A stretch of DNA of 53,974 nt, from the NCBI RefSeq assembly GCF_003057885.1, contig NZ_QAGK01000017.1, forward strand, positions 1 to 53,974, given 5' to 3'. Positions 1,728 to 53,974 of this stretch are shown one piece after another (positions within the stretch are counted from its first letter, which is position 1; each line of letters begins with the position of its first letter). The translations under genes and the position numbers were made by a program. Below the pieces are notes generated by a model. That model was not told the origin of the DNA. It worked only from the letters and a program-made list of their open reading frames with translations, and searched no databases. The stretch comes from Oceaniglobus ichthyenteri. Lineage in GTDB: Bacteria; Pseudomonadota; Alphaproteobacteria; Rhodobacterales; Rhodobacteraceae.

Positions 1728-2467
1728 GTTTCGCCCCCCGACAGGGTCAGGGTGTGGCCATTGACCGACCGCGCGCCATCGCTGCACAGCCACAGGGCGG
1801 CGCTTGCCACCTCGTCGGTCTGGATGAACCGGCGTTGGGGGTTGCCCTTGGTCAGGGAATTGGCGGCGTCTTGTCGGCTCATCCCGGTTTTTTCCACGAT
1901 ATTGTCGATGGATCGGTGCAACATCGGGGTTTCGATAAAGCCGGGGCAGATCGCGTTCACGGTGATGCCGGTCGCGGCCAGTTCCAGCGCCAGGGCGCGG
2001 GTCAGCCCGATAACCCCGTGTTTGGCGGCGCAATACCCGGCGGCATAGGCGTATCCCTTAAGCCCGGCGGTTGAGGCGATGGCGATCATCCGCCCCGTGC
2101 CTGCGGTTTTCATATCGCTCAGGGCCGCCTGCCAGACGTTGAACACCCCGGTGACATTCACATCATTCATCGCGGATAAATCGGCGGCGGTCATTTTGGC
2201 GAATGGCACTGATTTGGCCGCACCCGCATTGGCAATCACCACCGTGATCGGCCCCTGTTCGGTGCGCGCGGCGTCAAATGCGGCGCGCACGGCATCGCCG
2301 TCGGTGACATCGCAGATCTGATAGGGCAGGTTTTGCGCCGCCAGGGATTGTTCGCTGCGGCCCATGATCGTGACCCGTGCGCCCGCCCTGGCAAAGGCAT
2401 GGGCGGTTTGTGCCCCCACCCCGGTGCCGCCGCCGGTGATCACCACATGGGTTTGGGGCTGTATCAT
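1724..2467 (-). CDS. Short-chain dehydrogenase/reductase (SDR), probable 3-hydroxyacyl-CoA dehydrogenase
   Basis: A 247-residue classical SDR with the cofactor motif TGGGTGVG (11-18), the NAG motif (80-82) and the catalytic Ser132, Tyr145 and Lys149 (YCAAK). It ends with the usual GHTLTLSGG segment. It probably oxidises or reduces a hydroxyl/oxo group on the ring-derived CoA ester after the monooxygenase, or serves as the hydroxyacyl-CoA dehydrogenase of the following beta-oxidation-like steps. It overlaps the monooxygenase stop at its 5' end and the MarR start (ATGA) at its 3' end, so it is co-translated with both. The substrate is inferred from context only. Confidence 0.88.
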
Positions 2468-4808: not shown

Positions 4809-4839
4809 GTTTCAAGTATAAATATTTTGAGCTTGAAAC
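4809..4839. promoter_or_regulatory. Operator-like inverted repeat upstream of the anthraniloyl-CoA operon
   Basis: GTTTCAAG (4809-4816) and CTTGAAAC (4832-4839) are perfect inverted 8-mers. The right half is also a 15-bp imperfect palindrome (4825-4839) that closely resembles the site at 5854-5869. On the minus strand a good -10 box, TATACT (complement of 4815-4820), lies inside the left arm, so a bound protein would cover the promoter of the leftward operon. The binding protein is not known; the plasmid-borne MarR and AraC regulators are the obvious candidates. Confidence 0.6.
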
Positions 4840-4848: not shown

Positions 4849-5814
4849 TCAGTGGCGTTGGCTGGGCAAATGCCCGAACCGCGCCTTGTAGGCTTGGGAA
4901 AACCGGCCCAGATGGGAAAACCCGCTGGAAAACGCCACATCCGTCACCGAAGGCGGCGCGGTGCGTTGGGCCAGCTGATACCGGGCCGCATCCAGCCGGG
5001 CATCGCGCACCATGTCCATCGGGCTTTTGCCATAGTGGTGTTGAAACCCCTTTTGCAAACTGCGCGCGTTGATCGCGGCGGCGGTTGCAATATCATTCAG
5101 GCGGATCGGATTGCACAGGTTGGCATGAATGTAATCCACCGCGCGGCGCAGGGCGGCGGGCACCGCACCCCGGTCGATCCGGTTCAGCATGTGGGTGATA
5201 TTGCTGGGCTGATGCAGGATCAGGGCGGTGGCCAGATCCCTTTCGGCCCACAGATCGCGCGCGCCTTGTACGGTGGTAAACAACGCCCCCGCCCCGGCCA
5301 GTTGGGTGGCGCGCAGGATCAGACGTTTCAACCCCGCGCCGCCCGGTCGGGTCAGATCGATCTGCGGCTCAAACCGGATCGGCCCCGGCGCGCCATGGCC
5401 GATCAGTTCGGCGGCAGTGGTTTCAACGAAACCCTTGTCGATCTGCAACAACAGTTTTCGGCAATCGCCCTGCCATGACATCCGGGTGTCGCGGTCAGGA
5501 TTGAGCAGCGTGGCGGTGTCGGCATCGGCGGCAATATCGCTGCCCCGGTGGCGCACCCGCGCCTGACCGCTGATGGGCATCTGCAACAGATAAAACCCGC
5601 CCAATTGCCCCGGATCAATCGTCACATCGGCCCCATAATGCAGATAATTGATCGACATATGCCGCCCGGCCACATGATTGTGACGCACCATCAATGGCCC
5701 GCGTGCGGGCATGTGCAACCGGTGATCGCAAAACCTTTGGGTGACGCAAAACCGGGCCTCATCCAGATCGGATGTGCGCAACACTGGGAAAGAGGCCAGA
5801 AATTCGGTGTGCAT
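4849..5814 (-). CDS. AraC-family transcriptional regulator
   Basis: A 321-residue protein with an N-terminal AraC-type ligand-binding/cupin-like domain and a C-terminal double helix-turn-helix of about 100 residues, ending in the typical VAFSSGFSHLGRFSQAYKARFG segment. The ATG at 5814 is chosen; a TTG at 5847 would only add an unlikely 11-residue tail. It lies between the two aromatic operons, on the same strand as the monooxygenase operon and divergent from the cupin/kynurenine operon. AraC regulators of this type often activate aromatic catabolism. Anthranilate, kynurenine or a derivative is a reasonable effector, but nothing in the sequence fixes it. Confidence 0.88.
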   Translation of the reverse strand: MHTEFLASFPVLRTSDLDEARFCVTQRFCDHRLHMPARGPLMVRHNHVAGRHMSINYLHYGADVTIDPGQLGGFYLLQMPISGQARVRHRGSDIAADADTATLLNPDRDTRMSWQGDCRKLLLQIDKGFVETTAAELIGHGAPGPIRFEPQIDLTRPGGAGLKRLILRATQLAGAGALFTTVQGARDLWAERDLATALILHQPSNITHMLNRIDRGAVPAALRRAVDYIHANLCNPIRLNDIATAAAINARSLQKGFQHHYGKSPMDMVRDARLDAARYQLAQRTAPPSVTDVAFSSGFSHLGRFSQAYKARFGHLPSQRH

Positions 5815-5853: not shown

Positions 5854-5869
5854 ATTTCAAGCCTGAAAC
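5854..5869. promoter_or_regulatory. Palindromic operator candidate in front of the kynurenine operon
   Basis: ATTTCAAGCCTGAAAC contains TTTCA and TGAAA arms around AGCC. It lies in the 134-bp divergent region between the AraC gene and the first cupin gene. A rightward -10 box GATAAT (5888-5893) would place its -35 region within or at the edge of this palindrome, so occupancy would fit repression. A related sequence occurs at 4825-4839 before the other operon. Confidence 0.55.
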
Positions 5870-5948
5870 AGTTTGAGTCGCAATCTGGATAATCGCCCTG
5901 ACCGGTCTGGCGCAGAGTAGCCCACACATCAACAAGGAGGAAAACCGG

Positions 5949-6389
5949 ATGGACAAGGGGATAACACCTGCCGCCGAGGGATTGAACAACGCCAGCTGGA
6001 ATGTGGTCGGCCAAACCTATGTGCCGAAACTGCACAGCACCAATGCGTTTGTCTGGAGCGCCGATATTCCGGCCGATACATTCGTACCGCCCCATATTCA
6101 CCCCACCCAGGATGAATGGATCATCGTCATCGACGGCAACCTTGAGATCGAGTTTTCGGGCGATCTGCACAAGGCGGGGCCGGGGGATGTGGTGCAAATG
6201 CCGATGGGGGTGGCGCACGGCATTTTCAACCGGTCCGGTGCCCATGCCAAGGCGATGTTCGGCGTGGCCCCGGCGCGCAAGCTGTATGATCTGTTCACCG
6301 TGCTGGACGGTGTCACCGATCCGGCGGAACTGACCCGCCTGTCGGCCCTGCACGAGGTTGATTTTCTGCCCCCGCCGGAGGGTGCATGA
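5949..6389 (+). CDS. Cupin-domain protein (paralogue of the 51.5-kb cupin)
   Basis: A 146-residue single-domain cupin. Metal-ligand residues are in place: His49, His51 and Glu56 in PPHIHPTQDEW, and His90 in GVAHGIF. A strong AAGGAGG sits before the ATG. It resembles the cupin at 51546-51995 along its length (shared KGIT, GQ-Y-PK, HIHPTQDE, DLF and FLPP segments), so the two operons each carry one paralogue. It is the first gene of the kynurenine operon and its stop overlaps the monooxygenase start (ATGA). It could be an oxygenase, isomerase or hydrolase acting on a pathway intermediate. It is shorter than 3-hydroxyanthranilate dioxygenase and I do not assign that activity. Confidence 0.8.
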   Translation: MDKGITPAAEGLNNASWNVVGQTYVPKLHSTNAFVWSADIPADTFVPPHIHPTQDEWIIVIDGNLEIEFSGDLHKAGPGDVVQMPMGVAHGIFNRSGAHAKAMFGVAPARKLYDLFTVLDGVTDPAELTRLSALHEVDFLPPPEGA

Positions 6390-7873
6390 TGGCGACCCCA
6401 AAGCGCAAGAAGGTTGCAGTGATCGGCGGCGGCATCAGCGGGCTGGCCGCCGCCAAGGCATTTGATCAACAGGGCCACCGGGTGTGCGGGTTTGAACGCA
6501 GCGCCGATTTTGGCGGCGTCTGGGAATTGTCGCGCAGTTACCCCGATGTGCAAACCCAATCGCCCAAGGATCTGTATTGTTACACCGATCACCCGATGCC
6601 CGACGATTACCCCGAATGGCCCAAGGGCCCACAGGTGCATGCCTATCTGCATTCCTACGCGGCAAAGCATGATCTGGCGCGGCTGTTCAAGCTGAACACC
6701 ACGGTCAAGACCATGCAACAGGCCAAGGGCGGCGGTTGGACCCTGACGTTGAACCAGGGCGGGGCCGATTGGGACGAACATTTCGATTTCGTCACTGTTT
6801 GCACCGGGCAGTTTTCCGAGAAAAACATCATTTCTCATCCGGGCCAGGAGGCATTCATCGCCCGTGGCGGGCAGGTGATGCATTCGTCGGAATACACCGA
6901 TCCGTCGATCTGCAAGGGCAAGGATGTGGTGGTTCTGGGCGGGTCGAAATCGGCCACCGATATTGCGGTCAACGCCGTGAACAGCGGCGCGCGGTCGGTG
7001 CGGATGGTGTACAAGAAAAACGTCTGGCGCCTGCCGTATTTCGTGGGCGGGATCAATTTCAAACGTCTGCTGTACATGCGCGCGCAGGAATTGCAGTTCA
7101 ACACCTGGGGCAAAACGCCGGTGCAACGGGCCGTGGCGGCGGTGATGAAACCGCTGGTCTGGGCCAATTTTCGCGGTCTTGAAACCCTGATCAAACTTCA
7201 GCTTGGTTTGAAAAAGCACAATATGGTGCCCACCACCCCGATTGAAAAAGAGGTGTCGTGTTCGGTGCCTTTGGTCACGCCGGGCCTGTTTGAACATCTG
7301 AACGCGGGCAAGATCAAACCGGTGATCGGCACGTTTGAGAAATACACCGATGACGGGCTGAAACTGTCGACAGGGGAAACCGTGCCCTGCGATCTGGCGA
7401 TCCTGGCGGTGGGGTGGAAACTGGGCGTGCCGTATCTGCCGCAGACGTATCAGGACAAGTTGATCGAGGAGGATGGCCAATACCGGGTGTATCGGTTGGC
7501 GGTGAATCCCGATTTGCCCGATCTCGGCTTTGTCGGTTTCAACTCCAGCTTTTGCACGGTGTTGTCGGCGGAAATGGTGGCCAACTGGCTGGTGCGGTTT
7601 GCCGATGGGCAATTGGCCGATCAACCCGATGCCGCACAGATGAACGCAAATATCGACATGATGCTGAACTGGAAACGAAATGAACGCCCGGCGGCGCAAA
7701 TCTATGGCGGGTTGTGTTCGGCGCCGTTTCATTTCAAACATTTCGATGAACTGCTGGCCGATATGGGGGCCACAAAACACAAACGCGGGCCGGTCGGTGA
7801 ATATTTCAGCTATCCCGATTACCGGGCCTATGGTGAATATCTGGCCTCGACGCCGCACTACCGGGTGGGATGA
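6386..7873 (+). CDS. Flavin-containing monooxygenase (FMO family)
   Basis: A 495-residue protein with an FAD-binding GGGISG (14-19), an FMO-type fingerprint RGGQVMHSSEY (160-170) and a second, NADP-type motif GGSKSAT (185-191). This is the layout of class B flavin monooxygenases that N- or S-oxygenate, or perform Baeyer-Villiger reactions. It is not a kynurenine 3-monooxygenase, which is a different flavoprotein class. It starts at the ATGATG overlapping the cupin stop and is followed after 3 bp by the hydrolase. Tight coupling to formamidase, tryptophan dioxygenase and kynureninase implies a substrate in indole/kynurenine chemistry, but no canonical step of that route needs it. Confidence 0.85.
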   Translation: MMATPKRKKVAVIGGGISGLAAAKAFDQQGHRVCGFERSADFGGVWELSRSYPDVQTQSPKDLYCYTDHPMPDDYPEWPKGPQVHAYLHSYAAKHDLARLFKLNTTVKTMQQAKGGGWTLTLNQGGADWDEHFDFVTVCTGQFSEKNIISHPGQEAFIARGGQVMHSSEYTDPSICKGKDVVVLGGSKSATDIAVNAVNSGARSVRMVYKKNVWRLPYFVGGINFKRLLYMRAQELQFNTWGKTPVQRAVAAVMKPLVWANFRGLETLIKLQLGLKKHNMVPTTPIEKEVSCSVPLVTPGLFEHLNAGKIKPVIGTFEKYTDDGLKLSTGETVPCDLAILAVGWKLGVPYLPQTYQDKLIEEDGQYRVYRLAVNPDLPDLGFVGFNSSFCTVLSAEMVANWLVRFADGQLADQPDAAQMNANIDMMLNWKRNERPAAQIYGGLCSAPFHFKHFDELLADMGATKHKRGPVGEYFSYPDYRAYGEYLASTPHYRVG

Positions 7874-7876: not shown

Positions 7877-8677
7877 ATGAAAGATTGGGACGATGCCTTT
7901 GCGAATATGGCGCATATTCCGGGTGCTGATGCACTGCCCGGCATATGGGCCAGTGATGCCGCCGCCTATCGCGACAGCGGCGTGGCGGTTGACGAACACC
8001 GATACGGCGATCAGCCGCGCGAGACGTTTGATATGGTCTGGCCGGATGGCGCGCCCAAGGGGTTGGCGGTGTTCGTGCATGGCGGGTTCTGGATCAGGAT
8101 GGACAAATCCCATTGGACCCATTTTGCCCAAGGCGCGCGCGCCAATGGCTGGGCCGTGTGCATGGTGCAATACACGTTGGCCCCCACCGCGCGGATTGGC
8201 CAGATGACCGCGCAGGTGGGCCGCGCCATCACAATGGCGGCGGGGCTGGTTGATGGGCCGATCCGCCTTTCGGGGCATTCGGCGGGGGGCCATCTGGTCA
8301 GCCGGATGATGTGCGATGACAGCCCGCTGTCGGGCGATGTGTTGGACCGGGTGGAACACACCCTTTCAATCAGCGGGCTGCATGATTTGCGGCCCCTGAT
8401 GCGCACGAAAATGAACGCCGATCTGCGCCTTGATGAACCCGAGGCGCGGGTGGAAAGCGCCGCCTTGCACCGCCCCGATCCGCGCGCCAATCTTACCGCC
8501 TGGGTGGGCGGGGGCGAACGGCCCGAGTTTATTCGCCAGGCAAAGCTTTTGGCGCTGATCTGGGAAGGGTTGGATGTGCCGGTGTCCTGCACGATCGACG
8601 GCACCCATGATCATTTCTCGGTGCTTGAGGATCTGCGCGACCCAAACGGCGCAATCACCCGGGCCTTTGCGCCCTAG
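7877..8677 (+). CDS. Alpha/beta hydrolase, probable arylformamidase (kynurenine formamidase)
   Basis: A 266-residue alpha/beta hydrolase. The oxyanion motif HGGFW (68-72) and nucleophile elbow GHSAGG (133-138, Ser135) are those of the HGGxW arylformamidases of eukaryotic type; His246 near the C-terminus is the likely catalytic base. It would convert N-formylkynurenine to kynurenine and formate, exactly the step between the next gene (tryptophan 2,3-dioxygenase) and kynureninase. It is unrelated to the bacterial metal-dependent KynB fold, so kynB is not used. The ATG is 3 bp after the monooxygenase stop. Confidence 0.82.
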
Positions 8678-8695: not shown

Positions 8696-8722
8696 GCGGC
8701 GTTATGTAATGTCAAACGCCGC
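8696..8722 (+). promoter_or_regulatory. Intercistronic hairpin before tryptophan dioxygenase
   Basis: GCGGCGTT (8696-8703) and AACGCCGC (8715-8722) form a perfect 8-bp stem with an 11-nt loop, 4 nt before the GGAG ribosome-binding site of kynA. There is no T-run, so it looks like an mRNA-stability or translation-modulating element rather than a terminator. A possible earlier ATG for kynA (8709) lies in the loop. Confidence 0.5.
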
Positions 8723-8738
8723 AACCGGAGATCACACC

Positions 8739-9569
8739 ATGGCAGGGTACAACCCCGAAACCGAAGGCGCGAAAATGTCGTTCGCCACGGATATGTCTTA
8801 TATCGACTATCTGTCGCTTGATCCGATACTGGGCGCGCAAAACTGCCAATCGGACGCCCATGATGAAATGCTGTTCATCATTCAACACCAGACATCGGAA
8901 CTGTGGATGCGCCTGTGCCTGCATGAGTTGGCCACGGCTCGCGGCGCGCTGATCCGGCGCGAATTTCAGCCCAGTTTCAAAATGCTCACCCGGGTGTCGC
9001 GGATTTTTGAACAGTTGAACAATGCCTGGGATGTGCTGCGCACCATGACGCCCAGTGAATACACCCAGTTTCGTGGCGATCTGGGCGCGTCGTCGGGGTT
9101 TCAATCGCATCAGTACCGGTTGATTGAATTCATCCTGGGCAATCGCAATCCGGCAATGATGAAGGTGCATGAACACCGCCCCGAACTGCATCACATGCTG
9201 GGTCAGGAAATGCGCACCAAATCCCTGTATCACGTGGTTCTGGAGTGTCTGGCCGAACGGATGGAAACATCCTTTCCGCCCGAGGCATATCGCATGGATG
9301 CCCCCCACGCCGCCTGTGATGCGGTCACGGCGGCCTGGGCCAAGGTATATAATGATCCAAAAACCTATTGGACCCTGTATGAGCTGGCCGAAAAGCTGGT
9401 GGATCTGGAAGATTACTTTCGCCGCTGGCGGTTCAACCATGTCACCACGGTAGAGCGGATCATCGGATTCAAACGCGGCACCGGTGGCACGGCGGGCGTG
9501 TCCTATCTGCGCCGGATGCTTGAAGTTGAACTTTTTCCCGAACTCTGGAACGTACGAGGCGTATTGTGA
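8739..9569 (+). CDS. kynA: Tryptophan 2,3-dioxygenase
   Basis: A 276-residue haem dioxygenase that opens the indole ring of L-tryptophan to N-formylkynurenine. The substrate-pocket QHQTSELW (His50), the proximal haem His234 in [13 protein letters not shown] and the GTGG loop (247-250) are all present, and the length fits the bacterial family. I start it at 8739 because GGAG lies 8 nt upstream; the in-frame ATG at 8709 has no ribosome-binding site and falls in a hairpin loop. Its stop overlaps the kynureninase GTG (GTGA). Confidence 0.95.
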
Positions 9570-10756
9570 AAACCCTTCCCAAGAAACACGCGTTTTCCCT
9601 GCCTGAGGGCATGATTTACCTTGATGGCAACTCGCTTGGCCCGCTGCCCAAGGGCGTGGCCGAACGGGTGCAACAGATGATGCAGGATGAATGGGGCGCG
9701 CATCTGATCAAGGGCTGGAATGTCGATGACTGGATGGGCCAGCCGGTGCGCGTGGGCAATATGATTGCCCGGCTGATCGGCGCGCCCGAGGGATCGGTGA
9801 CCATGGGCGATACCCTGTCGATCAAGGTGTATCAGGCCCTGTCGGCGGCGTTGAAAATGCGCCCTGACCGGCGCGTGATCCTGTCGGACAGCGGCAATTT
9901 TCCATCGGATCTGTATATGGCCGAAGGTCTGATCAACCAGCTTGATCAGGGGTATGAGTTGCGCATTGTCGCGCCCGAAGATGTGGCCGGGGCCATGGGC
10001 GATGACATTGCCGTGGCGATGATTACCCAGGTCGATTATCGCACCGGACGGATGCACGACATGGCCGGTATCACCAAGGCGGCCCAAGATGCGGGTGCGG
10101 TTATGCTGTGGGATCTGGCGCACAGTGCGGGGGCGGTGCCGGTTGATCTGGCCGGATGCGGCGCCGAATTTGCCGTGGGGTGCAGTTATAAATACCTCAA
10201 CGGCGGGCCGGGTGCGCCCGGTTTCATCTATGCCCGCCCCGATATTGTAGGCGATATTCAGCCCGCCCTTGCCGGATGGCTGGGCCATGATGCGCCGTTC
10301 GCGTTTGAACGCGGTTATCGCCCCGCGCCCGATATCGAACGGATGCGTGTTGGCACCCCGCCGGTCATTCAGATGACCGCATTGGAAGAGGCGCTGAAGG
10401 TGTGGGAGGGCGTGGATATGGCCGATTTACGCGCCGCCTCAATTACCCTGTGTGATCTGTTTATCGAACTGGTCGAATCGCGCTGCCCGCAATTAACGCT
10501 GGCCAGCCCGCGTGACGGCGCGACGCGCGGCAGTCAGGTCTCGTTTGCCTTTGAACATGGCTATCCGGTGATACAGGCGTTGATTGCCCGCGATGTGATC
10601 GGCGATTTCCGCGCCCCTGACATCATGCGCTTTGGCTTTACCCCGCTTTATATCGACGAAACCGATGTGCGCGGCGCGGTCGATATTTTGGCCGATATTC
10701 TGGACAACCGGCTGTGGGATGCCCCCGAATACCACAAAAAAGGTCGGGTGACATAA
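9566..10756 (+). CDS. kynU: Kynureninase
   Basis: A 396-residue PLP enzyme that cleaves kynurenine to anthranilate and alanine. Diagnostic segments are YLDGNSLGP (18-26), the cofactor Asp in WDLAHSAG (182-189) and the Schiff-base Lys209 in [10 protein letters not shown]. The start is GTG at 9566, overlapping the dioxygenase TGA. No kynurenine 3-monooxygenase or 3-hydroxyanthranilate pathway is present on the plasmid, so the product is expected to be anthranilate, which feeds the CoA ligase and monooxygenase in the leftward operon. Confidence 0.95.
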
Positions 10757-31656: not shown

Positions 31657-31663
31657 GCCGGGA

Positions 31664-37373: not shown

Positions 37374-38552
37374 ATGTCAGAGACTTCTTCCCGGATCGAC
37401 GCCCTGGTTGGCGATCACGCGCAACGGTTATCCGAGCGGCTTCAGGCGCACCGCGCCCAGTTGTTTCCCCCCGATGCCAAACGCGCGTTGCGCAAATTCA
37501 CATCGGGCGAAGTGGCCGATCTGTTGGGGGTCAAAGATGCCTATTTGCGCAAGCTTAGTCTCGATGGCAAAGGCCCGTCGCCCGAAACCCGGGCCGGGGG
37601 GCGGCGGTTTTACAGCCCCGAAGACATTCAGGCCCTGCGCACCTATCTTGAGGCGGGGGCCAAGGTGCCCGGCACCTATCTGCCCGGCCGCAAACCCGGC
37701 GATAAATTACAGGTGATCACCGTCATCAATTTCAAGGGTGGGTCAGGCAAAACCACCACAGCGGCGCATCTGGCGCAGAAACTGGCGCTCGATGGCTATC
37801 GGGTTCTGGCGATTGATCTTGATCCACAGGCGTCGCTTTCGGCGCTGCATGGGTTTCAGCCCGAATTCGATCTGCTGGATGGCGGCACCCTGTATGATGC
37901 CATCCGCTATGATGATCCGGTGCCTTTGGCACAGGTCATTCAGAAAACATATTTCACCAATCTTGATATCGTGCCGGGCAATCTGGACCTGATGGAGTTC
38001 GAACACGACACGCCCCGCGCGCTTGCCAACCGCGATGGCACCCTGTTTTTCACCCGCGTCGGCGAAGCGTTGGGCAGTGTCGAATCCGAATATGATGTGG
38101 TGGTCATTGATTGCCCGCCCCAACTTGGGTTTTTGACCATGTCGGCCCTTTCGGCGGCAACGGCGGTGTTGGTCACGGTGCATCCGCAGATGTTGGATGT
38201 GATGTCGATGTGCCAATTCCTGCTGATGACATCAAATCTTCTGGGTGTGGTCGGTGAGGCGGGCGGCGATATGTCCTATGACTGGTTGCGTTATGTTATA
38301 ACGCGGTATGAACCGGGCGACGGCCCACAAAACCAGATGGTCAGCTTCATGCGATCGATGTTTGGCGATCATGTGCTGAACCACACCGCCCTGAAATCCA
38401 CCGCCATATCCGACGCGGGAATCACCAAGCAAACCCTGTATGAGGTTGAGAAATCGCAATTCACCCGTGCGACCTATGAACGGGCTGTTGAGAGTTTGAA
38501 TGCAGTAAATGGTGAGATCGCGGATTTGGTGCAAAAGGCATGGGGGCGTTAA
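37374..38552 (+). CDS. repA: Plasmid partitioning protein RepA (ParA family)
   Basis: A 392-residue partition ATPase. An N-terminal MerR-like DNA-binding region (FTSGEVADLLGVKDAYLRKL, then GGRRFYSPEDI) precedes the Walker-type ATPase with deviant Walker A KGGSGKTT (121-128) and DLDPQASLSALHG. RepA moves plasmid copies apart with RepB bound to parS and represses its own operon. The ATG at 37374 has little ribosome-binding sequence. repB follows 3 bp after the stop. Confidence 0.95.
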   Translation: MSETSSRIDALVGDHAQRLSERLQAHRAQLFPPDAKRALRKFTSGEVADLLGVKDAYLRKLSLDGKGPSPETRAGGRRFYSPEDIQALRTYLEAGAKVPGTYLPGRKPGDKLQVITVINFKGGSGKTTTAAHLAQKLALDGYRVLAIDLDPQASLSALHGFQPEFDLLDGGTLYDAIRYDDPVPLAQVIQKTYFTNLDIVPGNLDLMEFEHDTPRALANRDGTLFFTRVGEALGSVESEYDVVVIDCPPQLGFLTMSALSAATAVLVTVHPQMLDVMSMCQFLLMTSNLLGVVGEAGGDMSYDWLRYVITRYEPGDGPQNQMVSFMRSMFGDHVLNHTALKSTAISDAGITKQTLYEVEKSQFTRATYERAVESLNAVNGEIADLVQKAWGR

Positions 38553-38555
38553 CCG

Positions 38556-39530
38556 ATGGCACGCAAGGATTTACTCAAAGGGCTGATGGCCCCTGCCCCG
38601 TCCAAAACCGGGCCCGAAACCGACCCCGAACCAGAGCAGCGTGTGGATGTGGCGCGCCCCCGGTATAGCGGCGGCGCCATCGGCGCGGTCAGCCAATCGA
38701 TTGCCGAACTCAAAAGCCGGTCGGTCAGTGATATCGATAGTGCGCTGATTGACGATGGCGGGTTGATCGACCGGATCGATCTGGAAGATCCCGATCATGC
38801 GTCCCTGCGCGATTCAATCAAAACCCACGGTCAACAGGTGCCAATCCTTGTGCGCCCCCATCCCCAATCGCCGGGGCGGTTTCAGATCGTTTATGGCCGC
38901 CGCCGTCTGGCCGCGCTGCGCGATCTATCCCTGCCCGCGCGCGCCTTGGTGCGTGATCTGGATGATCAGGCGGTGGTCATGGCCCAAGGGCAGGAAAACT
39001 CGGCGCGCAAGGATCTGACCTTTATCGAAAAGGTCAATTTTGCCCGGCAAATGCGCGCGGCGGGTTATCCGCGCACCGCGATTTGCGACGCACTTACCCT
39101 GGATAAAACGGTGATTTCGCGGATGCTGACGATTGCCGACAAAATCCCCATCGACGTGATCGAACTGATCGGATCGGCCCCGGCGGTGGGCCGGGATCGG
39201 TGGGGCGCGCTGGCCAAACGGTTTGACGCAGGCACCACCGATCTGGCCACGGCGCGCGATCTGGTCGCCGCCCTGCCCCCATCGGCCACGTCGGACATGC
39301 GGTTTGATACGGTTCTGGCCGGACAGCGCACAGTCGCCAAAACGCCCGCCCCGCCCCGCGAAACCCTGAACACCGCAGAAGGTAAACCCATCGCCCGGAT
39401 CACCCGAAAATCCGGCGCGCTGACCCTGACCCTGCCGCGAAAAGACAGCGGCGGGTTTGAGGATTGGTTGGCCGAGCATCTTATCGACATTCACCGCGAT
39501 TGGGCCAAGGCCCGCGGTGAGGAAACGTAA
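38556..39530 (+). CDS. repB: Plasmid partitioning protein RepB (ParB family)
   Basis: A 324-residue ParB/Spo0J-like CTP- and DNA-binding protein. The ParB core shows IKTHGQQVPILVRPHP, YGRRRLAAL and GQENSARKDLTFIEKVNFA, followed by a helix-turn-helix around LDKTVISRMLTIADKIP. It should bind the two 16-bp parS palindromes that flank repC and load RepA onto them. Length and order fit repABC. Confidence 0.95.
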   Translation: MARKDLLKGLMAPAPSKTGPETDPEPEQRVDVARPRYSGGAIGAVSQSIAELKSRSVSDIDSALIDDGGLIDRIDLEDPDHASLRDSIKTHGQQVPILVRPHPQSPGRFQIVYGRRRLAALRDLSLPARALVRDLDDQAVVMAQGQENSARKDLTFIEKVNFARQMRAAGYPRTAICDALTLDKTVISRMLTIADKIPIDVIELIGSAPAVGRDRWGALAKRFDAGTTDLATARDLVAALPPSATSDMRFDTVLAGQRTVAKTPAPPRETLNTAEGKPIARITRKSGALTLTLPRKDSGGFEDWLAEHLIDIHRDWAKARGEET

Positions 39531-39569
39531 ACAAAACCCTAACAGGAGGCACGATTCGACAGAACCAAA

Positions 39570-39622
39570 GCAAAAGGCCCCCCAAGATACATCCCGAGAG
39601 GCCCTTTTTCGATAACTGAACA
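39570..39622 (-). ncRNA. Candidate repABC antisense RNA (ctRNA, incompatibility factor)
   Basis: Minus-strand promoter elements TTGACA (complement of 39651-39656) and TATTTT (complement of 39629-39634) are 16 nt apart. A transcript from about 39622 would run about 50 nt into a terminator stem AAAAGG/CCTTTT with an inner CCTC/GGGG pairing, ending in TTTTG near 39572. This is the position, length and layout of the counter-transcribed RNA of repABC plasmids, which pairs with the repB-repC mRNA and lowers RepC synthesis. On the plus strand the same stem precedes a T-run, matching the attenuator form. Confidence 0.75.
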
Positions 39623-39641
39623 CCATCGAAAATAGCCATTC

Positions 39642-39657
39642 GTTGACAGCTGTCAAC
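39642..39657. promoter_or_regulatory. parS partition site 1
   Basis: GTTGACAGCTGTCAAC is a perfect 16-bp palindrome matching the repABC parS consensus GTTNNNNGCNNNNAAC. It lies between repB and repC. Its right arm supplies the -35 box of the antisense RNA promoter, so RepB binding should affect that promoter. Confidence 0.88.
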
Positions 39658-39701
39658 ACCGTCTTGTGGGCGAAAGCAAAAGTTTTGCCGCGTGACAGCA
39701 A

Positions 39702-40778
39702 ATGAAACACATTTCAACGATGTCCATCGGGCAGCGATCCCAGATGGTTTGCCCAAAGCCAGACGCCATCGGCCATGATAAATGGCAGTTGTTTGAACAG
39801 GTCTGCATCGCGCGCAAACACCACGGGGTCAGCGACCGCGACCTCAGCGTTCTTCACGCTTTGTTAACGTTTCATCCCAACCGATATCTGCAGGATGACA
39901 CCCAGATGACGGTGTTTCCCTCAAACAAAACCCTCAGCACCCGCGCCCATGGCATGGCCGAAAGCACCCTGCGCCGGCATCTGGCGGCACTGGTGCGGGC
40001 GGGATTGATCGAACGTCAAAACAGCCCCAATGGCAAACGCTATGCCAAACGCGGCGCGGGCGGTGTGATCCGCCATGCCTATGGGTTCAACCTCGGGCCT
40101 CTGGTTCAGCGGGCCGTTGACATCGCCCAAGCGGCACAGATGACGCAGGAACACGAACAGCACCTGCGCGATCTGCGCGATGAGATCCTGATCCTGCGTT
40201 GGGAGATTGAACAATCCGCACAGGCCGCCAACAATCATGACCTGGTGGCGCAAATGACCGGAATCAAACGTGTCCTGCGCCGCAAACTGGACGGCGCTAC
40301 CTTGGCGCAAATGCACGGCACTTTGCGCGAAATCCACGGGGCAGTCATACAATCCGAACCCCCCGAAACAGAAAAAACAAGCGCCACAAACGCCCAAAAT
40401 GAGCGGCACAATCAGAGTTCAGATAAGGATATATCTGAAGAAAAGACCGAAACCCCAAGCCTGAGCCAAATCACAACCGCCGTTCCCGATTTGAAAACGT
40501 ATTTTGGCAATGAAATATCGACTTGGGATCGGTTGTTCCAAGCGTCGGGAACGCTGAGTGCGATGATCGGGGTTACAAAACAAACCTGGGCCGAGGCGAT
40601 ACATGTGATGGGGCCGAAACAGGCGGCAATCGCGGTGGTTTGCATTCTTCAACGTGGGGCCGAAATCAAAAGCCCCGGTGCCTATCTGCGGCGATTGGTG
40701 CAAAAGGCCAGTCTGGGTGATTTTACAGTCGGACCAATGGTGAATGCCCTGTTAAATCAGCGCACGGTAAATAGTTGA
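39702..40778 (+). CDS. repC: Replication initiator RepC
   Basis: A 358-residue initiator of the repABC type. The N-terminal winged-helix half is clear (LSVLHALLTFHPN, FPSNKTLSTRAHGMAESTLRRHLAALVRAGLI). A hydrophilic linker (about residues 215-255) and a C-terminal domain (GPKQAAIAVVCILQRG, SPGAYLRRL) follow. It is somewhat shorter than the usual 400 residues. RepC acts in cis and is dose-limiting; the origin normally lies inside its own gene. Its TGA sits within the second parS. Confidence 0.95.
   Translation: MKHISTMSIGQRSQMVCPKPDAIGHDKWQLFEQVCIARKHHGVSDRDLSVLHALLTFHPNRYLQDDTQMTVFPSNKTLSTRAHGMAESTLRRHLAALVRAGLIERQNSPNGKRYAKRGAGGVIRHAYGFNLGPLVQRAVDIAQAAQMTQEHEQHLRDLRDEILILRWEIEQSAQAANNHDLVAQMTGIKRVLRRKLDGATLAQMHGTLREIHGAVIQSEPPETEKTSATNAQNERHNQSSDKDISEEKTETPSLSQITTAVPDLKTYFGNEISTWDRLFQASGTLSAMIGVTKQTWAEAIHVMGPKQAAIAVVCILQRGAEIKSPGAYLRRLVQKASLGDFTVGPMVNALLNQRTVNS
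40418..40439. other. Candidate oriV element: inverted repeat in the AT-rich part of repC
   Basis: TTCAGATA (40418-40425) and TATCTGAA (40432-40439) are perfect inverted 8-mers around AGGATA, inside a locally AT-rich stretch (about 40360-40520) that codes for the RepC linker. In studied repABC plasmids oriV maps to such an AT-rich segment of repC. Assignment is by analogy. Confidence 0.5.
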
Positions 40779-48321: not shown

Positions 48322-49107
48322 ATGAAAGTGTTGATTTTGCCGGACGCCGCACAGGCGGTGGGCCGGGTGACGCGCGAAATCCGCGATCTGGTGGCACAGC
48401 GCCCGGATGCGCGGCTGGGCCTGGCCACGGGCGGCACGATGGAGCCTGTTTATGCCGCTCTGGTGGCCGGTGACGTGGATCTGTCACGGGTGACCACATT
48501 CAACCTGGATGAATATGTCGGGCTTGGCCCGGATCATCCGCAAAGTTACCGCGCCTATATGAACACCCGCCTGTTCGGGCCAAAAAACATGCCCGCCGCG
48601 CAGACCCATCTGCCACGGGGCGATGCCGATGATCCCGCCGCCGAGGCGGCCCGATACGAGGCGGCGATTTGCGAGGGCGGTATTGATCTGCAACTGTTGG
48701 GGCTGGGGGCGAACGGGCATATCGGGTTCAATGAACCGTCGTCCTCTCTGGGGTCGCTGACCCGGGTGAAAACCCTGACCAACAGCACCCGCGACGCCAA
48801 TGCGCGGTTCTTTGGCCCCGGCGAAGATGTGCCGCGTTACGCCATCACCATGGGCATCGCCACAATCATGCAGGCCCGCCATGTGGTGTTGCTGGCCACT
48901 GGCGCGGCCAAGGCCGATGCCGTGGCCGCGATGATCGAGGGGCCGATCACCGCGATCTGTCCGGCGTCGATCCTGCAGATGCACCCCCGCGCCACCATCG
49001 TTGTGGATGAGGCGGCAGCGGCCCGCCTGACCCTGCGCGATTATTACCAGACCGTGCACCCGGGCGGCGCGGAACCGCCGCCGATGGGCCGGTCTGTGCG
49101 CCCCTAG
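48322..49107 (+). CDS. nagB: Glucosamine-6-phosphate deaminase-like protein
   Basis: A 261-residue NagB-fold protein. LGLATGGTMEPVY binds phosphate, FNLDEYVGL carries the catalytic Asp63 and GANGHIGFNEP contains His133 and Glu138. It should isomerise and deaminate an amino-sugar 6-phosphate to a ketose phosphate and ammonia. It closes the TRAP operon and ends in a CTAG shared with the convergent RidA gene. NagA is not present on the plasmid, so the substrate may be non-acetylated or deacetylated elsewhere. Confidence 0.88.
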   Translation: MKVLILPDAAQAVGRVTREIRDLVAQRPDARLGLATGGTMEPVYAALVAGDVDLSRVTTFNLDEYVGLGPDHPQSYRAYMNTRLFGPKNMPAAQTHLPRGDADDPAAEAARYEAAICEGGIDLQLLGLGANGHIGFNEPSSSLGSLTRVKTLTNSTRDANARFFGPGEDVPRYAITMGIATIMQARHVVLLATGAAKADAVAAMIEGPITAICPASILQMHPRATIVVDEAAAARLTLRDYYQTVHPGGAEPPPMGRSVRP

Positions 49108-49508
49108 GCCGGTTTGCCCAGATAGGCGGTGGCCTCGATTTCCAACAGCGCCGCGTCTTCGATCAATCCGGCGACCACAACCATGGACATGGCCGGAAAA
49201 TGGCGGCCCAGCACCCGGCGATACACTTCGCCGACCTCGCGCTGGCGCGCCAGATATTCGGCCTTGTCGATCACGAACCAGGTCAGGCGCACGATGTCTT
49301 CGACCTGCCCGCCGGCCTTTTCAATCACATCGACGATGTTTTTCAGTGCCTGTTCCATCTGGCCGATGAAATCATGGGTTTCAAACACCTGCTGTGCGGT
49401 CCATCCGACCTGTCCGCCGATATACAGGGTGCCATCGGCGGTCAGCATTCCGTTGGCATAGCCACGGGCGGGGGTCCAATGGTCGGGTTGAATGGTTTGG
49501 GCGGTCAT
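49104..49508 (-). CDS. RidA/YjgF-family protein lacking the canonical arginine
   Basis: A 134-residue Rid protein, last gene of the anthraniloyl-CoA operon. The fold segments GTLYIGGQVGW, QALKNIVDVIEKAGG and LLEIEATAYL are clear. Canonical RidA enamine/imine deaminases have PARS at the active site; here it is PAMS (Met107), so the substrate-binding Arg is missing. Still, the monooxygenase product is a ring enamine, which a Rid-type protein could hydrolyse to release ammonia. It overlaps the thioesterase start by 4 bp. Confidence 0.85.
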   Translation of the reverse strand: MTAQTIQPDHWTPARGYANGMLTADGTLYIGGQVGWTAQQVFETHDFIGQMEQALKNIVDVIEKAGGQVEDIVRLTWFVIDKAEYLARQREVGEVYRRVLGRHFPAMSMVVVAGLIEDAALLEIEATAYLGKPA

Positions 49509-49906
49509 GGCGTACTCCGTAGATGAGAGGTAAAGGATTGGCGCAGGGTGTCGGGCCAGCGCACCGGGCGACCATCGGCATTGATATAGACAAGGGTGGC
49601 ATCGGTGGTGAACCGCGCCTCGCCCCCGGCGCGGGCGTTCAGTTGAATATCCAGACTGGCATTGCCCAGGCGCAAAACCTCAAGCGATATGATCAGGTGA
49701 TCGCCATGGCGGCTGGGGGCCTGAAAGCGGGTGCTGATCTGTGCCATCGGCACCGCGTTTTTGCCATGCAGGGATTCAAACGGATGATCGATGCTGTCAA
49801 AAAACGCCTCGACGCAGTCGTTCATCATTTCGAAATAGCGCGGGTAAAACACGATGCCCGCAGGATCGCAGTGTTTGAACAACACCTTTTGTGGAAATGA
49901 AAACAT
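49505..49906 (-). CDS. Acyl-CoA thioesterase, 4-hydroxybenzoyl-CoA thioesterase family
   Basis: A 133-residue hot-dog-fold protein. HCDPAGIVFYPRYFEMMND carries the catalytic Asp14 in the position typical of 4-hydroxybenzoyl-CoA thioesterases. It may release free acid from a dead-end or late CoA intermediate and recycle CoA in the anthraniloyl-CoA pathway. It lies between the CoA ligase (19-bp gap) and the RidA gene (ATGA overlap). Confidence 0.88.
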   Translation of the reverse strand: MFSFPQKVLFKHCDPAGIVFYPRYFEMMNDCVEAFFDSIDHPFESLHGKNAVPMAQISTRFQAPSRHGDHLIISLEVLRLGNASLDIQLNARAGGEARFTTDATLVYINADGRPVRWPDTLRQSFTSHLRSTP

Positions 49907-49925
49907 GGGTGTGGGCCTGTGCGTG

Positions 49926-51542
49926 TCAATCGGTCTTTTTCAACAGGAAGCGCTGAATCTTGCCGGTCTGGGTTTTTGGCAATGCGGTGCAGAATATGAT
50001 GCGCCGGGGGTATTTGAACGGCGCGATTGCCGCTTTTACGTGGTCTTGCAACGCTTTGATCATATCCGCGTCGGGGGTGCCAGAGGCCAGCACCACATGC
50101 GCCTCGACGATCATGCCACGTTCGGGGTCGGGCGCGCCGATCACGGCGCATTCGGCCACGGCGGGCGCGGACAACAGCGCCGCCTCAACCTCGGGTCCGG
50201 CGATGTTATACCCCGATGACACGATCATATCATCGTTGCGCGCGGCGAAATAACAATATCCGTCTTCGTCCATCCGAAAGGCATCGCCGGTGATGTTCCA
50301 CCCATCCAGCACATATTTTGCCTGTCGCTCATCGGCGAGATACCGGCACCCGGTGGGGCCGCGCACCGCCAGACGGCCAACAGTGCCGCGCGGCAGTTCA
50401 TTGCCATCGGGGCCGATGATCTTGGCCTGATAGCCGGTGACGGGGCGGCCGGTGCAGGACGGTTTGTGATCGTCAAACCGGTTGGTGATAAAAATATGCA
50501 GCATTTCGGTGGCGCCGATCCCATCCAGCATCGGTTTGCCGGTTTTCGCGATCCAGTCGTCATAGATCGGGCCGGGCAGGGTTTCGCCCGCCGACACCGC
50601 CGCGCGCAGGGATGACAGATCGGCCCCCGATTCCATCGCCGCCAGCATCGCGCGATAGGCGGTGGGCGCGGTGACACAGACGGTTGCCTTGTATTTTTCG
50701 ATGATCTTGATCATGTTCGGCGGTGACGCGGTTTCCAGCAATGTCGCCGTTGCACCAAAACGCAGCGGGAAAACCGCCAGCCCCCCCAGCCCGAAGGTAA
50801 ACGCCAAGGGCGGCGAGCCGACAAAGATATCGCCCGGCACCACATTCAGCACTTCGCGCGCATAGCCATCGGCGATGATCAACAGATCGCGGTGAAAATG
50901 CATCGTCGCCTTGGGCGATCCGGTGGTGCCCGACGTAAAGCCAAGCAGCGCCACATCATCGCGCCCGGTGTTCACCGCGTCAAATTGCACCGGTTTTTCC
51001 AATGCCAGCCGGTCAAGTTCGGCATCGTGGTTCGATGTGCCGTCAAACCCGACCACGGTTTTCAAGAACCGGCTGTTCTTGGCGCACAGGGTCATTTCAT
51101 CCATCAACCGCGTGTCGCACAGCGCATGCGAGATTTCGGCCTTGTCGACAATCGCCGACAATTCGCCCGCGCGCAGCATCGGCATGGTGTTGACCACCAC
51201 CGCCCCCGCCTTGGTCGCTGCCAGCCAGCAGGCCACCAAAGCGGGGTTGTTGGCCGAACGGATCATCACCCGGTTGCCCGGCTTGACCCCCAGATCCTGA
51301 ACCAGGGCGGCGGCCAGTTTGTTGGTCCAGTCGGCCAGTTCCTTGTAGGTGCGCCTGCGCCCATTGCCGATCAGCGCCGTGTGATCGCCAAACCCCTTGG
51401 CGACCATGGCATCGGTCAGTTCAACCGCCGCGTTCAACCGTTCGGGGTAATCGAACCCGTCAAGCAACAGATCAGGCCAGGTGTCGGGCGGCGGCAGGTT
51501 ATCGCGGGTGAATGTATCGGTATGGGCGGAGGGGCCAAGCAT
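49926..51542 (-). CDS. abmG: 2-aminobenzoate (anthranilate)-CoA ligase, benzoate-CoA ligase family
   Basis: A 538-residue adenylate-forming ligase with the AMP motif TSGTTGSPK (203-211), the YRT-like GIGATEM core and the C-terminal catalytic Lys528 in PKTQTGKIQRF. Family members activate benzoate and aminobenzoates. Being in one operon with the aminobenzoyl-CoA monooxygenase and close to kynureninase makes anthranilate the expected substrate (anthranilate + ATP + CoA to anthraniloyl-CoA). The start at 51542 follows the cupin stop by 3 bp. Salicylate is the main alternative. Confidence 0.87.
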   Translation of the reverse strand: MLGPSAHTDTFTRDNLPPPDTWPDLLLDGFDYPERLNAAVELTDAMVAKGFGDHTALIGNGRRRTYKELADWTNKLAAALVQDLGVKPGNRVMIRSANNPALVACWLAATKAGAVVVNTMPMLRAGELSAIVDKAEISHALCDTRLMDEMTLCAKNSRFLKTVVGFDGTSNHDAELDRLALEKPVQFDAVNTGRDDVALLGFTSGTTGSPKATMHFHRDLLIIADGYAREVLNVVPGDIFVGSPPLAFTFGLGGLAVFPLRFGATATLLETASPPNMIKIIEKYKATVCVTAPTAYRAMLAAMESGADLSSLRAAVSAGETLPGPIYDDWIAKTGKPMLDGIGATEMLHIFITNRFDDHKPSCTGRPVTGYQAKIIGPDGNELPRGTVGRLAVRGPTGCRYLADERQAKYVLDGWNITGDAFRMDEDGYCYFAARNDDMIVSSGYNIAGPEVEAALLSAPAVAECAVIGAPDPERGMIVEAHVVLASGTPDADMIKALQDHVKAAIAPFKYPRRIIFCTALPKTQTGKIQRFLLKKTD

Positions 51543-51545
51543 GGC

Positions 51546-51995
51546 TTACTCGTTCGCTTCTGGGGGAAGGAAATTCACGTCATGTTCGGCGGATACCTTG
51601 ACCACCTGTTCCACATCGCTGAGGTTGTCGAGCTGTACAAACAGATCCTTCAGCTTGCCCTTGGGCGATACCCAGAACAGCGCGCGGCAGGGTTTGTCGG
51701 ATTTGTTGAAATAGCCATGGGGGATGCCGCGCGGCATCCGCACCACATCGCCGGCATAGGCCTTGCTCCAGACGCCATCCAGTTTCAGATCCAATTCGCC
51801 CTCTTGCACCAGAATGAATTCATCCTGGGTGGGGTGGATATGCACCGGCACAAAATCGCCCGGCGCCGAGTTGGTTTCAAAGGCAAAGCTGCTGTCGCAT
51901 TCCACCTTTGGAAAATATTTCTGGCCCAGAATATTCCAGGTGGTGTCGCCGTATCCGGTGCCGTTTTTGGTGATGCCTTTTTCAAGCTCTTTCAT
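51546..51995 (-). CDS. Cupin-domain protein (paralogue of the 5.9-kb cupin)
   Basis: A 149-residue cupin with metal ligands His52, His54 and Glu59 (VHIHPTQDEF) and His93 (GIPHGYF). It shares much of its length with the cupin at 5949, so the anthraniloyl-CoA and kynurenine operons each have one copy. GGGAGG lies before the ATG at 51995; a longer frame to 52037 would overlap the dehydrogenase gene. Chemistry unknown: candidates are ring-opening oxygenation, isomerisation or hydrolysis of an enamine. Confidence 0.8.
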   Translation of the reverse strand: MKELEKGITKNGTGYGDTTWNILGQKYFPKVECDSSFAFETNSAPGDFVPVHIHPTQDEFILVQEGELDLKLDGVWSKAYAGDVVRMPRGIPHGYFNKSDKPCRALFWVSPKGKLKDLFVQLDNLSDVEQVVKVSAEHDVNFLPPEANE

Positions 51996-52011
51996 GATGG
52001 TTCCTCCCTTT

Positions 52012-53157
52012 TCATGATCCGATGGTTTGGCGGGCAATGATCACGCGCTGGACGTCTGATGCGCCCTCGTATATGCGCAAGGCCCTGATTTCGCGGTACA
52101 ACCGTTCCACGGTTTCACCGCTGCGCACCCCGTCACCGCCATGTAATTGCACGGCGCGGTCGATGATCTTTTGCGCGTGGTCGGTGGCAAACAGTTTCGC
52201 CATCGCCGCCTCGCGGGTGACACGCGGCGCGCCGGAATCCTTGGTCCAGGCGGCGCGGTAAACCAACAGCGCGCTGGCGTCGATGTCGACGGCCATATCG
52301 GCAATATGCCCCTGAACCATCTGCAAATCGAACAGGGGCGCGCCCTGTACATGGCGGGTGGTGACGCGTTTGATCGCCTCGTCCAATGCGCGGCGGGCAA
52401 AGCCAAGGGCCGCCGCCGCCACGGTTGAGCGGAACACATCCAGCACCGACATGGCAATCTTGAACCCCGCGCCGCTGTGCCCAATCATGGCGCTGGCGGG
52501 AATGCGGCAATCGCTGAATTTCAGGGTCGCCAAAGGGTGGGGCGCGATGACGTGCAAACGTTCGGCAATGGCAAGGCCCGGTGTATCGGCAGGCACGATA
52601 AAGGCCGACAATCCGCGCGCGCCCGGCGCATCGCCGGTGCGGGCAAACACCGTGTACAGATCGGCAATGCCGCCGTTCGAGATCCAGGTTTTTTCACCGT
52701 TCAGCACATAATCATCGCCATCGCGTGTGGCGGTCATGGTGGAATTGGCCACATCTGACCCGGAATTGGGTTCGGTCAGGGCAAAGGCCGATATCGCCTG
52801 ACCCCGGCGCACCGCTGGCAACCATTCCTGTTGCTGTGCGGGCGTGCCAAACAGCGAAATCGCGCCGGTGCCAAGACCCTGCATCGCAAAGGCGAAATCG
52901 GCCAAGCCATCGTGGCGCGCCAATGTTTCGCGGATCAGGCACAGGGCGCGCACATCCAACCGGCCCTGTGACCCCGGTTCGATTGTGGCGTGGTTCAACC
53001 ACCCCGCAGCACCCAGTTGCGCCACCAGATCACGGCAGGCCTGATCGGTGTCGGTGTGATCAACGCGCAAATCGCTGGCAAAGCCTTCCAGTGCATCCGC
53101 CAGGGCGCGGTGGCGGTCCTCAAAAAATGGCCAGCTCAGGAAGGTTTTGTCGGCCAT
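52012..53157 (-). CDS. Acyl-CoA dehydrogenase (complete copy)
   Basis: A 381-residue FAD enzyme: N-terminal helical domain, beta domain with [14 protein letters not shown] (126-139) and [10 protein letters not shown] (153-162), and a C-terminal helical domain with QLHGGDG (337-343) and YEGASDVQR (363-371), whose Glu364 is the usual catalytic base. It would desaturate a CoA ester late in the anthranilate pathway, for instance a pimeloyl- or ring-type intermediate; it also resembles glutaryl-CoA-like and cyclohexane-type dehydrogenases. ATG at 53157 overlaps the hydratase stop. Confidence 0.92.
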
Positions 53158-53963
53158 CAATCGCCCTCGAACACTGGTTTTTCCTTGGCGACAAAGGCGT
53201 TATAGGCGCGTTCGAAATCGCGGGTCTGCATGCAGATCGCCTGAGTCTGGGCCTCGGCCTCGATCGCCTGTTCGATCGACATTGACCATTCCTGCGCCAG
53301 CATGGTTTTGGTCATCATATGGGCAAAATTCGGCCCCGCGGCGATGCGCGTGGCCATATCCCGCGCGGTTTGCTCCAAATCATTGGCACCCACGACGCGG
53401 TTGTAAAACCCCCAGGCCGCGCCCTCATCCGCCGACATTGACCGCCCCGTATACAGCAATTCGGCGGCGCGCCCTTGGCCGATCAGGCGGGGCAGGATCG
53501 CACAGGCGCCCATATCGCACCCGGCCAGACCAACGCGGGTGAACAGAAACGCGCATTTTGCATCCTGGCTGGCAATGCGCAGGTCTGACGCCATGGCAAT
53601 AATCGCCCCCGCCCCGGCGCACACCCCATCGACGGCGGCAATCACCGGTTTGCCGCAATTGATCATCGCCTTGACCAAATCGCCGGTCATGCGGGTGAAA
53701 TTCAGCATTTCCTTCATGCTCATCCGGGTCAGCGGGCCGATGATATCATGCACATCCCCGCCCGAGCTGAAATTGCCGCCGTTCGAGGCGAAAATCACCA
53801 CATCCACATCGTCGGCATAAGCCAGATCACGAAACCAATCGCGCAATTCCGCATAACTTTCAAAGGTCAGCGGGTTTTTACGGTCGGGCCGGTCCAGCGC
53901 GATTGTGGCGATACGATCGGCAATGGTGCATTTGAAATGGGTCACATCGGTGCGGGTATTCAT
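53157..53963 (-). CDS. Enoyl-CoA hydratase family protein (same gene as 457-1263)
   Basis: Identical to the gene at 457-1263 and counted once on the circle. It is followed here by the full acyl-CoA dehydrogenase gene with a TGATG overlap. Confidence 0.85.
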
Positions 53964-53974
53964 GGCGTCAAACT
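53960..53974 (-). CDS. 3' end of the MarR regulator gene (cut by window edge)
   Basis: The last five codons, including the stop, of the gene that is complete at 1260-1727. The ATGA overlap with the hydratase start is repeated here. Confidence 0.85.

Follow-up and report, generated by a model that had tools for sequence, protein, structure and literature searches.

Which compounds does the catabolic locus on a plasmid of Oceaniglobus ichthyenteri degrade, and is its combination of genes unusual for the family Rhodobacteraceae? The stretch analysed here (the window) is the whole 53,974-nucleotide contig NZ_QAGK01000017.1, one of 38 contigs (C9) in the 3.90-Mb genome. It carries an abm operon, predicted to act in the aerobic 2-aminobenzoyl-coenzyme A (CoA) pathway, and a divergent operon that includes genes for tryptophan (Trp) 2,3-dioxygenase and kynureninase. 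The original prediction, made from this DNA without database searches, described a continuous route from Trp through the CoA-bound pathway and regarded its coupling on one plasmid as unusual; it omitted two cupins and a class B flavin monooxygenase (FMO). The analysis reported here favors, with a probability of about 0.65, a locus that channels aromatics containing nitrogen into the aerobic 2-aminobenzoyl-CoA pathway through a Trp core and a second FMO/cupin arm.

The two operons belong to a single locus. The first 1,274 bp of the window (1-1274) are an exact direct repeat of the last (52701-53974), so that the contig represents a circle of 52,700 bp with overlapping ends. Therefore, the hydratase genes at 53157-53963 and 457-1263 are one gene, and the segments 49104-53963 and 457-5847 are contiguous and form one divergent locus. 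On the minus strand, the abm operon comprises nine genes, running from 4752 down to 457 (= 53963) and continuing to 49104 with gaps of -4 to 19 nt, in the order fusion monooxygenase/reductase, short-chain dehydrogenase/reductase (SDR), MarR regulator, hydratase, acyl-CoA dehydrogenase, cupin A, ligase, thioesterase and Rid protein. The divergent operon on the plus strand (5949-10756) consists of five genes, cupin B, FMO, alpha/beta hydrolase, Trp dioxygenase and kynureninase; their gaps range from -4 to about 40 nt, the upper figure hinging on the uncertain start of the Trp dioxygenase. Both operons that had been proposed are thus present, although not as separate units at opposite ends of the plasmid, and every enzyme that had been named was found as an intact open reading frame (ORF) with the expected domains. 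The plasmid location claimed earlier is borne out as well, since RepA, RepB and RepC are encoded on a circular molecule, as in repABC plasmids.

The route from Trp via kynurenine and anthranilate to 2-aminobenzoyl-CoA is a well-supported prediction for this plasmid, and the claim of continuity agrees with homology and gene context (curated models, the ligase and co-occurrence). Trp dioxygenase would convert Trp to N-formylkynurenine, from which the alpha/beta hydrolase would remove formate, and kynureninase would then cleave kynurenine to anthranilate and alanine. The ligase would activate anthranilate to 2-aminobenzoyl-CoA, whose ring would be hydroxylated and reduced by the fusion enzyme, an FAD monooxygenase joined to an Old Yellow Enzyme (OYE); the product expected in the abm pathway would be 2-amino-5-oxocyclohex-1-ene-1-carbonyl-CoA. 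The dehydrogenase, hydratase, SDR, thioesterase and Rid protein would account for a beta-oxidation-like ring opening with loss of ammonia. This order of steps is proposed from knowledge of the enzyme families, and the 2-aminobenzoyl-CoA steps follow those of Azoarcus as described in the accessible text of PMC4539516. Among solved structures, the ligase is closest to 4wv3, "Anthranilate-CoA ligase" (278 bits; best benzoate-CoA ligase, 238), and it exceeded the cut-off of none of the best 25 of 102 NCBIfam models (benzoate-CoA ligase subfamily, 341.2 against 375.25). The only Trp dioxygenase match in the genome (E<=0.001) and the only full-length monooxygenase/reductase both lie on the plasmid contig, the other two matches of the latter being partial. 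No match to the cyclase-type arylformamidase (TIGR03035) was found in the genome. A catechol route was rejected on the single model tried, as the best genomic match to the large subunit of anthranilate 1,2-dioxygenase (TIGR03228) reached 93.3 bits against a cut-off of 671.9.

Regarding the rarity of this coupling, 198 genomes of the family, including O. ichthyenteri, were surveyed. The fusion enzyme is present in 67 and a full-length Trp dioxygenase in 87 (88 full-length rows; of 91 genomes with a match, the fragment-only G021, G115, G131 and G146 were left out). Both occur together in 63 genomes against an expectation of 29; if the Trp dioxygenase fragment of G021, a genome with the fusion enzyme, is counted, the overlap rises from 63/67 to 64/67. 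A neighborhood search within the family placed Trp dioxygenase no more than 10 kb from the fusion gene in 20 of the 67 genomes (O. ichthyenteri counted), 12 in the same and 8 in opposite orientation. The combination also occurs on plasmids of Ruegeria pomeroyi and Sagittula stellata. With about a third of the sampled relatives having it, such coupling is ordinary in this family, and the earlier claim of rarity is not supported. Gene orders at the locus vary among family genomes, pointing to a repeated origin or repeated rearrangement of the linkage. Relatives of the fusion enzyme (E<=1e-150) were detected on 90 of 72,556 plasmid records. Trp degradation through 2-aminobenzoyl-CoA is a recurrent accessory route in the family, often encoded at one locus and sometimes on a plasmid. 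The database name "salicylyl-CoA 5-hydroxylase", carried by the NF006101 model and by 40 of the 60 fusion-enzyme plasmid records listed, probably conceals this route.

The second arm rests on the FMO and its neighbors. A pattern-based scan of one genome per species (84,980 species) yielded 60 FMO loci, comprising 56 close (51-82% identity) and 4 distant ones (36-37%). Most are alphaproteobacterial by title; two come from metagenome-assembled genomes (MAGs), L076 being titled Granulosicoccaceae and L118 Ectothiorhodospiraceae. Within 1 kb of the FMO, 55/56 close loci have a cupin of the cupin A/B family, and 51/56 have a divergent AraC gene, so AraC, cupin and FMO form a conserved gene unit. 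A hydrolase like that of the window accompanies the FMO in 8/56, Trp dioxygenase in 5/56 and kynureninase in 4/56. The fusion enzyme was found in 54 of the 55 searched genomes with a close FMO (49/49 and 5/6), against backgrounds of 67/198 family genomes and 53/289 class genomes. This search covered 49 genomes of 50 loci at E<=1e-150 and the remaining 10 loci at E<=1e-100; the L085 genome stands outside the count, and the match in the L104 genome is a fragment. Trp dioxygenase is present in 47/49 close-FMO genomes, and the two lacking it, L092 (Kiloniella) and L122 (Methylobacterium), nevertheless keep the fusion enzyme. All eight close-FMO genomes of the family sample have the fusion enzyme (Fisher P 1.3e-4; 3.8e-4 without O. 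ichthyenteri); a ninth genome, G124, also has the fusion enzyme, but its FMO, at 34% identity, was not counted as close. In the class sample of 289, the corresponding figure is 3/3 (P 0.006; 0.03 without O. ichthyenteri, which was counted in both samples). Urate oxidase, nearly universal at 188/198 family genomes, was uninformative as a co-occurrence control, so the FMO association lacks a good control based on an accessory gene. As a separate observation, 57 of 62 FMO-bearing plasmid records (E<=1e-60) are from Phaeobacter, and the 262-kb plasmid pPGA1_262 of P. inhibens DSM 17395 (L131) carries the AraC-cupin-FMO unit in a 19.5-kb stretch free of abm and Trp genes.

Both cupins of the window belong to PF07883, and a cupin of the same family also lies inside the abm operon at loci L051 and L059. 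In an alignment of cupin A with FMO-linked cupins, H49, H51, Q54, E56 and H90 are invariant in 28 rows; the His/His/Glu/His positions are presumably the metal ligands. The nearest solved chains are quercetin 2,3-dioxygenases, a distant match over 57 positions, making cupin B a candidate quercetinase-like dioxygenase. The unit was not named in the titles or abstract openings found by a targeted literature search, which, covering mostly papers outside subscription access, is weak evidence of novelty.

The alpha/beta hydrolase may connect the two arms. It had been called arylformamidase-like, and the part of this claim that stands is that an intact alpha/beta hydrolase is encoded, distantly similar to kynurenine formamidase 4e11 (E=4e-13). 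In a midpoint-rooted tree of 24 related hydrolases, the window copy falls into a starred set of 12. Eleven of these, the window copy among them, lie beside an FMO; the exception, L050, is the closest relative of the window copy and lies beside Trp dioxygenase. Genome G038 has both arrangements, as its L056 hydrolase neighbors Trp dioxygenase and its L067 hydrolase the FMO. Because the window copy groups with FMO-adjacent copies, its identity as an arylformamidase is uncertain, and the FMO arm plausibly makes a product that a formamidase-like enzyme can cleave. The hydrolase would then serve both the Trp arm and the FMO arm.

Under the favored explanation, AraC would switch on or off the FMO and cupin B, and these two would oxidize another substrate to anthranilate or an N-formyl or N-acyl derivative, which would enter at the same ligase. 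From these gene associations, we infer a second arm making anthranilate, with a heterocycle of the indole or quinolone type as a possible starting compound. In Rhodococcus, alkylquinolones are degraded by aqdABC, and in this and in indole-to-anthranilate routes a monooxygenase, a ring-opening dioxygenase and an amide hydrolase lead to anthranilate. The aqdABC system works like the proposed FMO-cupin-hydrolase arm, although the protein families differ as far as we are aware, and the two are likened by function alone. A bolder version, held here as a tentative and rather doubtful proposal, is that AraC, cupin B, FMO and hydrolase constitute a previously undescribed degradation route for N-heteroaromatics of the indole/4-quinolone type in marine bacteria. 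The FMO would hydroxylate the carbon adjacent to the carbonyl of the ring, or C3 of indole, the cupin dioxygenase would open the ring to N-formyl- or N-acyl-anthranilate, the hydrolase would free anthranilate, and the CoA pathway would consume it. Some indole- and 4-quinolone-type compounds are bacterial signals. Such a route, if it exists, would parallel aqdABC-type signal degradation without being homologous to it and would be tied to Trp catabolism, and marine bacteria including Phaeobacter would possess a signal- or pollutant-degrading arm that annotation has missed. In any case, the unit is a compact and testable lead, as the strong association with the 2-aminobenzoyl-CoA enzyme limits the functions it may have.

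The upstream regions were compared with 3094 G+C-matched background windows from the same loci, using patterns derived from the very sequences that were counted. A spaced TTCAAG...CTTGAA lies upstream of 12/30 fusion genes, that of the window included, against 37/3094 background windows, and the TTTCAAGC half-site upstream of 17/30 (background, 136/3094). CG-N6-GGATA occurs upstream of 47/56 close FMO units and 0/30 fusion genes (background, 55/3094), and control patterns with shifted spacers gave 2/56 each. By these counts, the inverted repeat would serve MarR as the operator of the fusion gene, and in the window and some relatives it may also reach the FMO promoter; CG-N6-GGATA would be a site for AraC that is particular to the FMO unit. 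The nearest NCBIfam model of the AraC protein is AndR (157 bits, under the cut-off of 350).

Several points weigh against the proposed funnel. The roles of the enzymes are predictions from their genes. The Trp dioxygenase scores 371.1 bits on TIGR03036, below the cut-off of 390.7, although of the 91 matching family genomes just 51 reach that value, and the hydrolase is called "hormone-sensitive lipase" by its NCBIfam model, NF058665. The TTTCAAGC half-site lies upstream of just 13/56 close FMO units and the full inverted repeat upstream of 0/56, so an operator shared by the fusion gene and the FMO unit is weakly supported. The fusion gene lies within 10 kb at just 15/56 close FMO loci; the MAG L118 has a close FMO and no fusion enzyme, and two of the four distant-FMO genomes lack it as well. 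The sampled genomes share ancestry, which makes the Fisher P values optimistic, and the co-occurrence of FMO and fusion enzyme is compatible with either direction.

This last point leaves room for an FMO-cupin unit acting downstream or sideways of the CoA pathway, where it would remove or open a 2-aminobenzoyl-CoA shunt product, such as a hydroxylated aminobenzoate that the thioesterase sets free. The tie to the fusion enzyme would fit such a role equally well, and cupins of the same family stand inside the abm operon here and at the two loci named above, with an annotated cupin in the R. pomeroyi operon; yet 59/67 fusion-enzyme genomes lack a close FMO, and the formamidase-related hydrolases found with the FMO at 8/56 loci, which group apart from the copies linked to Trp dioxygenase or the fusion gene, fit an N-formyl or N-acyl product, so that a shunt function is judged rather unlikely. 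That the unit is an unrelated passenger beside an ordinary Trp catabolic island is considered improbable: no fusion gene was seen within 10 kb at 41/56 close FMO loci (13 of these 41 span less than 10 kb on a side), and the P. inhibens unit described above stands without abm or Trp genes, whereas the fusion enzyme accompanies nearly every close FMO at a frequency far above the family and class backgrounds. A route serving salicylate, with the fusion enzyme acting as salicylyl-CoA 5-hydroxylase and the Trp genes as mere neighbors, has in its favor the name of the NCBIfam model and of most listed plasmid records. Salicylate as the main substrate was rejected on gene context, because Trp dioxygenase accompanies the fusion enzyme in 63/67 genomes; the ligase is nearest to anthranilate-CoA ligase and a Rid protein is encoded in the abm operon, which makes this reading very improbable. 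Funneling of Trp and a further substrate through anthranilate therefore remains the preferred reading. The features of the locus and of the replicon are collected in the table.

Table. Genes and candidate regulatory sites of the O. ichthyenteri plasmid locus, with window positions
Feature	Position	Strand	Basis or remark
2-Aminobenzoyl-CoA monooxygenase/reductase (predicted; FAD monooxygenase fused to OYE)	2464..4752	-	PF01494 + PF00724; NF006101 1293.8 bits, cut-off 1078; ATG at 4752, mechanical ORF 2464-4815
SDR dehydrogenase; probable 3-hydroxyacyl-CoA dehydrogenase role	1724..2467	-	PF00106 168.6 bits
MarR-family regulator inside abm operon	1260..1727	-	PF01047 44.2 bits
Enoyl-CoA hydratase	53157..53963, identical copy 457..1263	-	NF006107 473.9 bits, cut-off 330
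Acyl-CoA dehydrogenase	52012..53160	-	PF00441/02770/02771
Cupin A	51546..52037	-	PF07883 64.3 bits; true start probably inside ORF, near 51995
Aryl-CoA ligase, probably anthranilate-CoA ligase	49926..51542	-	AMP-binding PF00501 240 bits; nearest solved relative 4wv3
4HBT acyl-CoA thioesterase	49505..49906	-	PF13279 37.2 + PF03061 31.6 bits, both above cut-off
Rid-family protein (enamine/imine deaminase type), final abm gene	49104..49508	-	PF01042 71.8 bits
Inverted repeat TTTCAAG-N15-CTTGAAA, candidate operator (probably MarR)	4810..4838	.	Upstream of fusion monooxygenase
AraC-family regulator, between operons, divergent to cupin-FMO operon	4849..5814	-	PF14525 + PF12833
TTTCAAGC half-site (5855) + CG-N6-GGATA (5879)	5855..5891	+	Upstream of cupin B
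Cupin B, quercetinase-like dioxygenase candidate	5949..6389	+	PF07883 49 bits
Class B flavin monooxygenase (FMO)	6386..7873	+	PF00743 137.7 bits, cut-off 22
Alpha/beta hydrolase, candidate formamidase	7877..8677	+	NF058665 364.4 bits, cut-off 320; motifs HGGFW, GHSAGG
Tryptophan 2,3-dioxygenase	8709..9569 (ATG 8709 or 8739; ORF 8574-9569)	+	PF03301 233.6 bits, cut-off 34.9
Kynureninase	9566..10756	+	TIGR01814 286.1 bits, cut-off 246.4
repABC replication and partition genes	37374..40778	+	RepA-like ParA-type ATPase, RepB, RepC

Other genes of the plasmid were recorded alongside. An FGGY kinase gene directly follows kynureninase and is succeeded by a ribose-type ABC transporter (10714-15625); these may share a transcript with the Trp genes though unrelated to them. 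At 17424-21108, a two-part fumarase-like pair and an FAD-binding fumarate-reductase-like protein are encoded, and among the ten plasmid matches listed, the most identical at the fumarase-like region is from Sulfitobacter sp. THAF37 (81.9% over 18086-22267). A urate-to-glyoxylate module spans 25519-32485 and comprises a permease, ureidoglycolate lyase, a deacetylase/OHCU-decarboxylase fusion, a LysR regulator, urate oxidase and a double cupin; the only urate oxidase match in the genome (E<=1e-100) lies on the plasmid, the gene being that found in 188/198 family genomes. Matches of enterobacterial plasmids to window positions 1-24000 were dismissed, as they amount to 48-51 bp of an ABC ATPase gene (25 rows across 100 records). 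Two unassigned ORFs scanned against PHROGs gave no match.

Comparable systems occur in several bacteria. The primary paper on the 2-aminobenzoyl-CoA pathway of Azoarcus evansii is that of Schuhle (2001). Phaeobacter inhibens DSM 17395, according to what Drueppel reportedly showed in 2014, degrades Trp via kynurenine and 2-aminobenzoate and onward as in Azoarcus, with the genes scattered on the chromosome, unlike the single plasmid locus of O. ichthyenteri. With the aerobic pathway of A. evansii, whose aminobenzoyl-CoA genes are reported to lie on a small plasmid in the accessible text of PMC4539516, the present locus shares the CoA ligase, the monooxygenase/reductase, the beta-oxidation enzymes and the plasmid location; compared by description, O. 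ichthyenteri adds Trp dioxygenase, kynureninase and the AraC-cupin-FMO unit. In Cupriavidus metallidurans, abm and kyn genes occur in one genome, as far as the accessible part of PMC8879955 describes it. The plasmid pSG53 of Sulfitobacter guttiformis (NC_019362.1; 53,184 bp) has a similar size, repABC genes and an abm operon with a fusion enzyme 84.4% identical, but no Trp genes are annotated in the 26.6 kb seen, and its operon contains a branched-chain-type ABC transporter. This transporter, located between the ligase and RidA genes in the abm operons of both pSG53 (L130) and pW43B (L134), is a candidate uptake system for anthranilate or Trp and is absent from the abm operon of O. ichthyenteri. 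In the 22.3-kb stretch of the Ruegeria pomeroyi DSS-3 megaplasmid (NC_006569.1), kynureninase and FMO are not annotated, whereas Trp dioxygenase and an alpha/beta hydrolase are likewise divergent from an abm operon with an annotated cupin. Plasmid unnamed2 of Sagittula stellata E-37 (NZ_CP155731.1) differs in that the Trp genes lie inside the abm operon and no alpha/beta hydrolase is annotated in the stretch; it shares the fusion enzyme, SDR, MarR, hydratase, dehydrogenase, ligase, Trp dioxygenase, kynureninase, thioesterase and RidA, and its FMO, cupin and AraC genes directly adjoin the abm operon, as they do in O. ichthyenteri.

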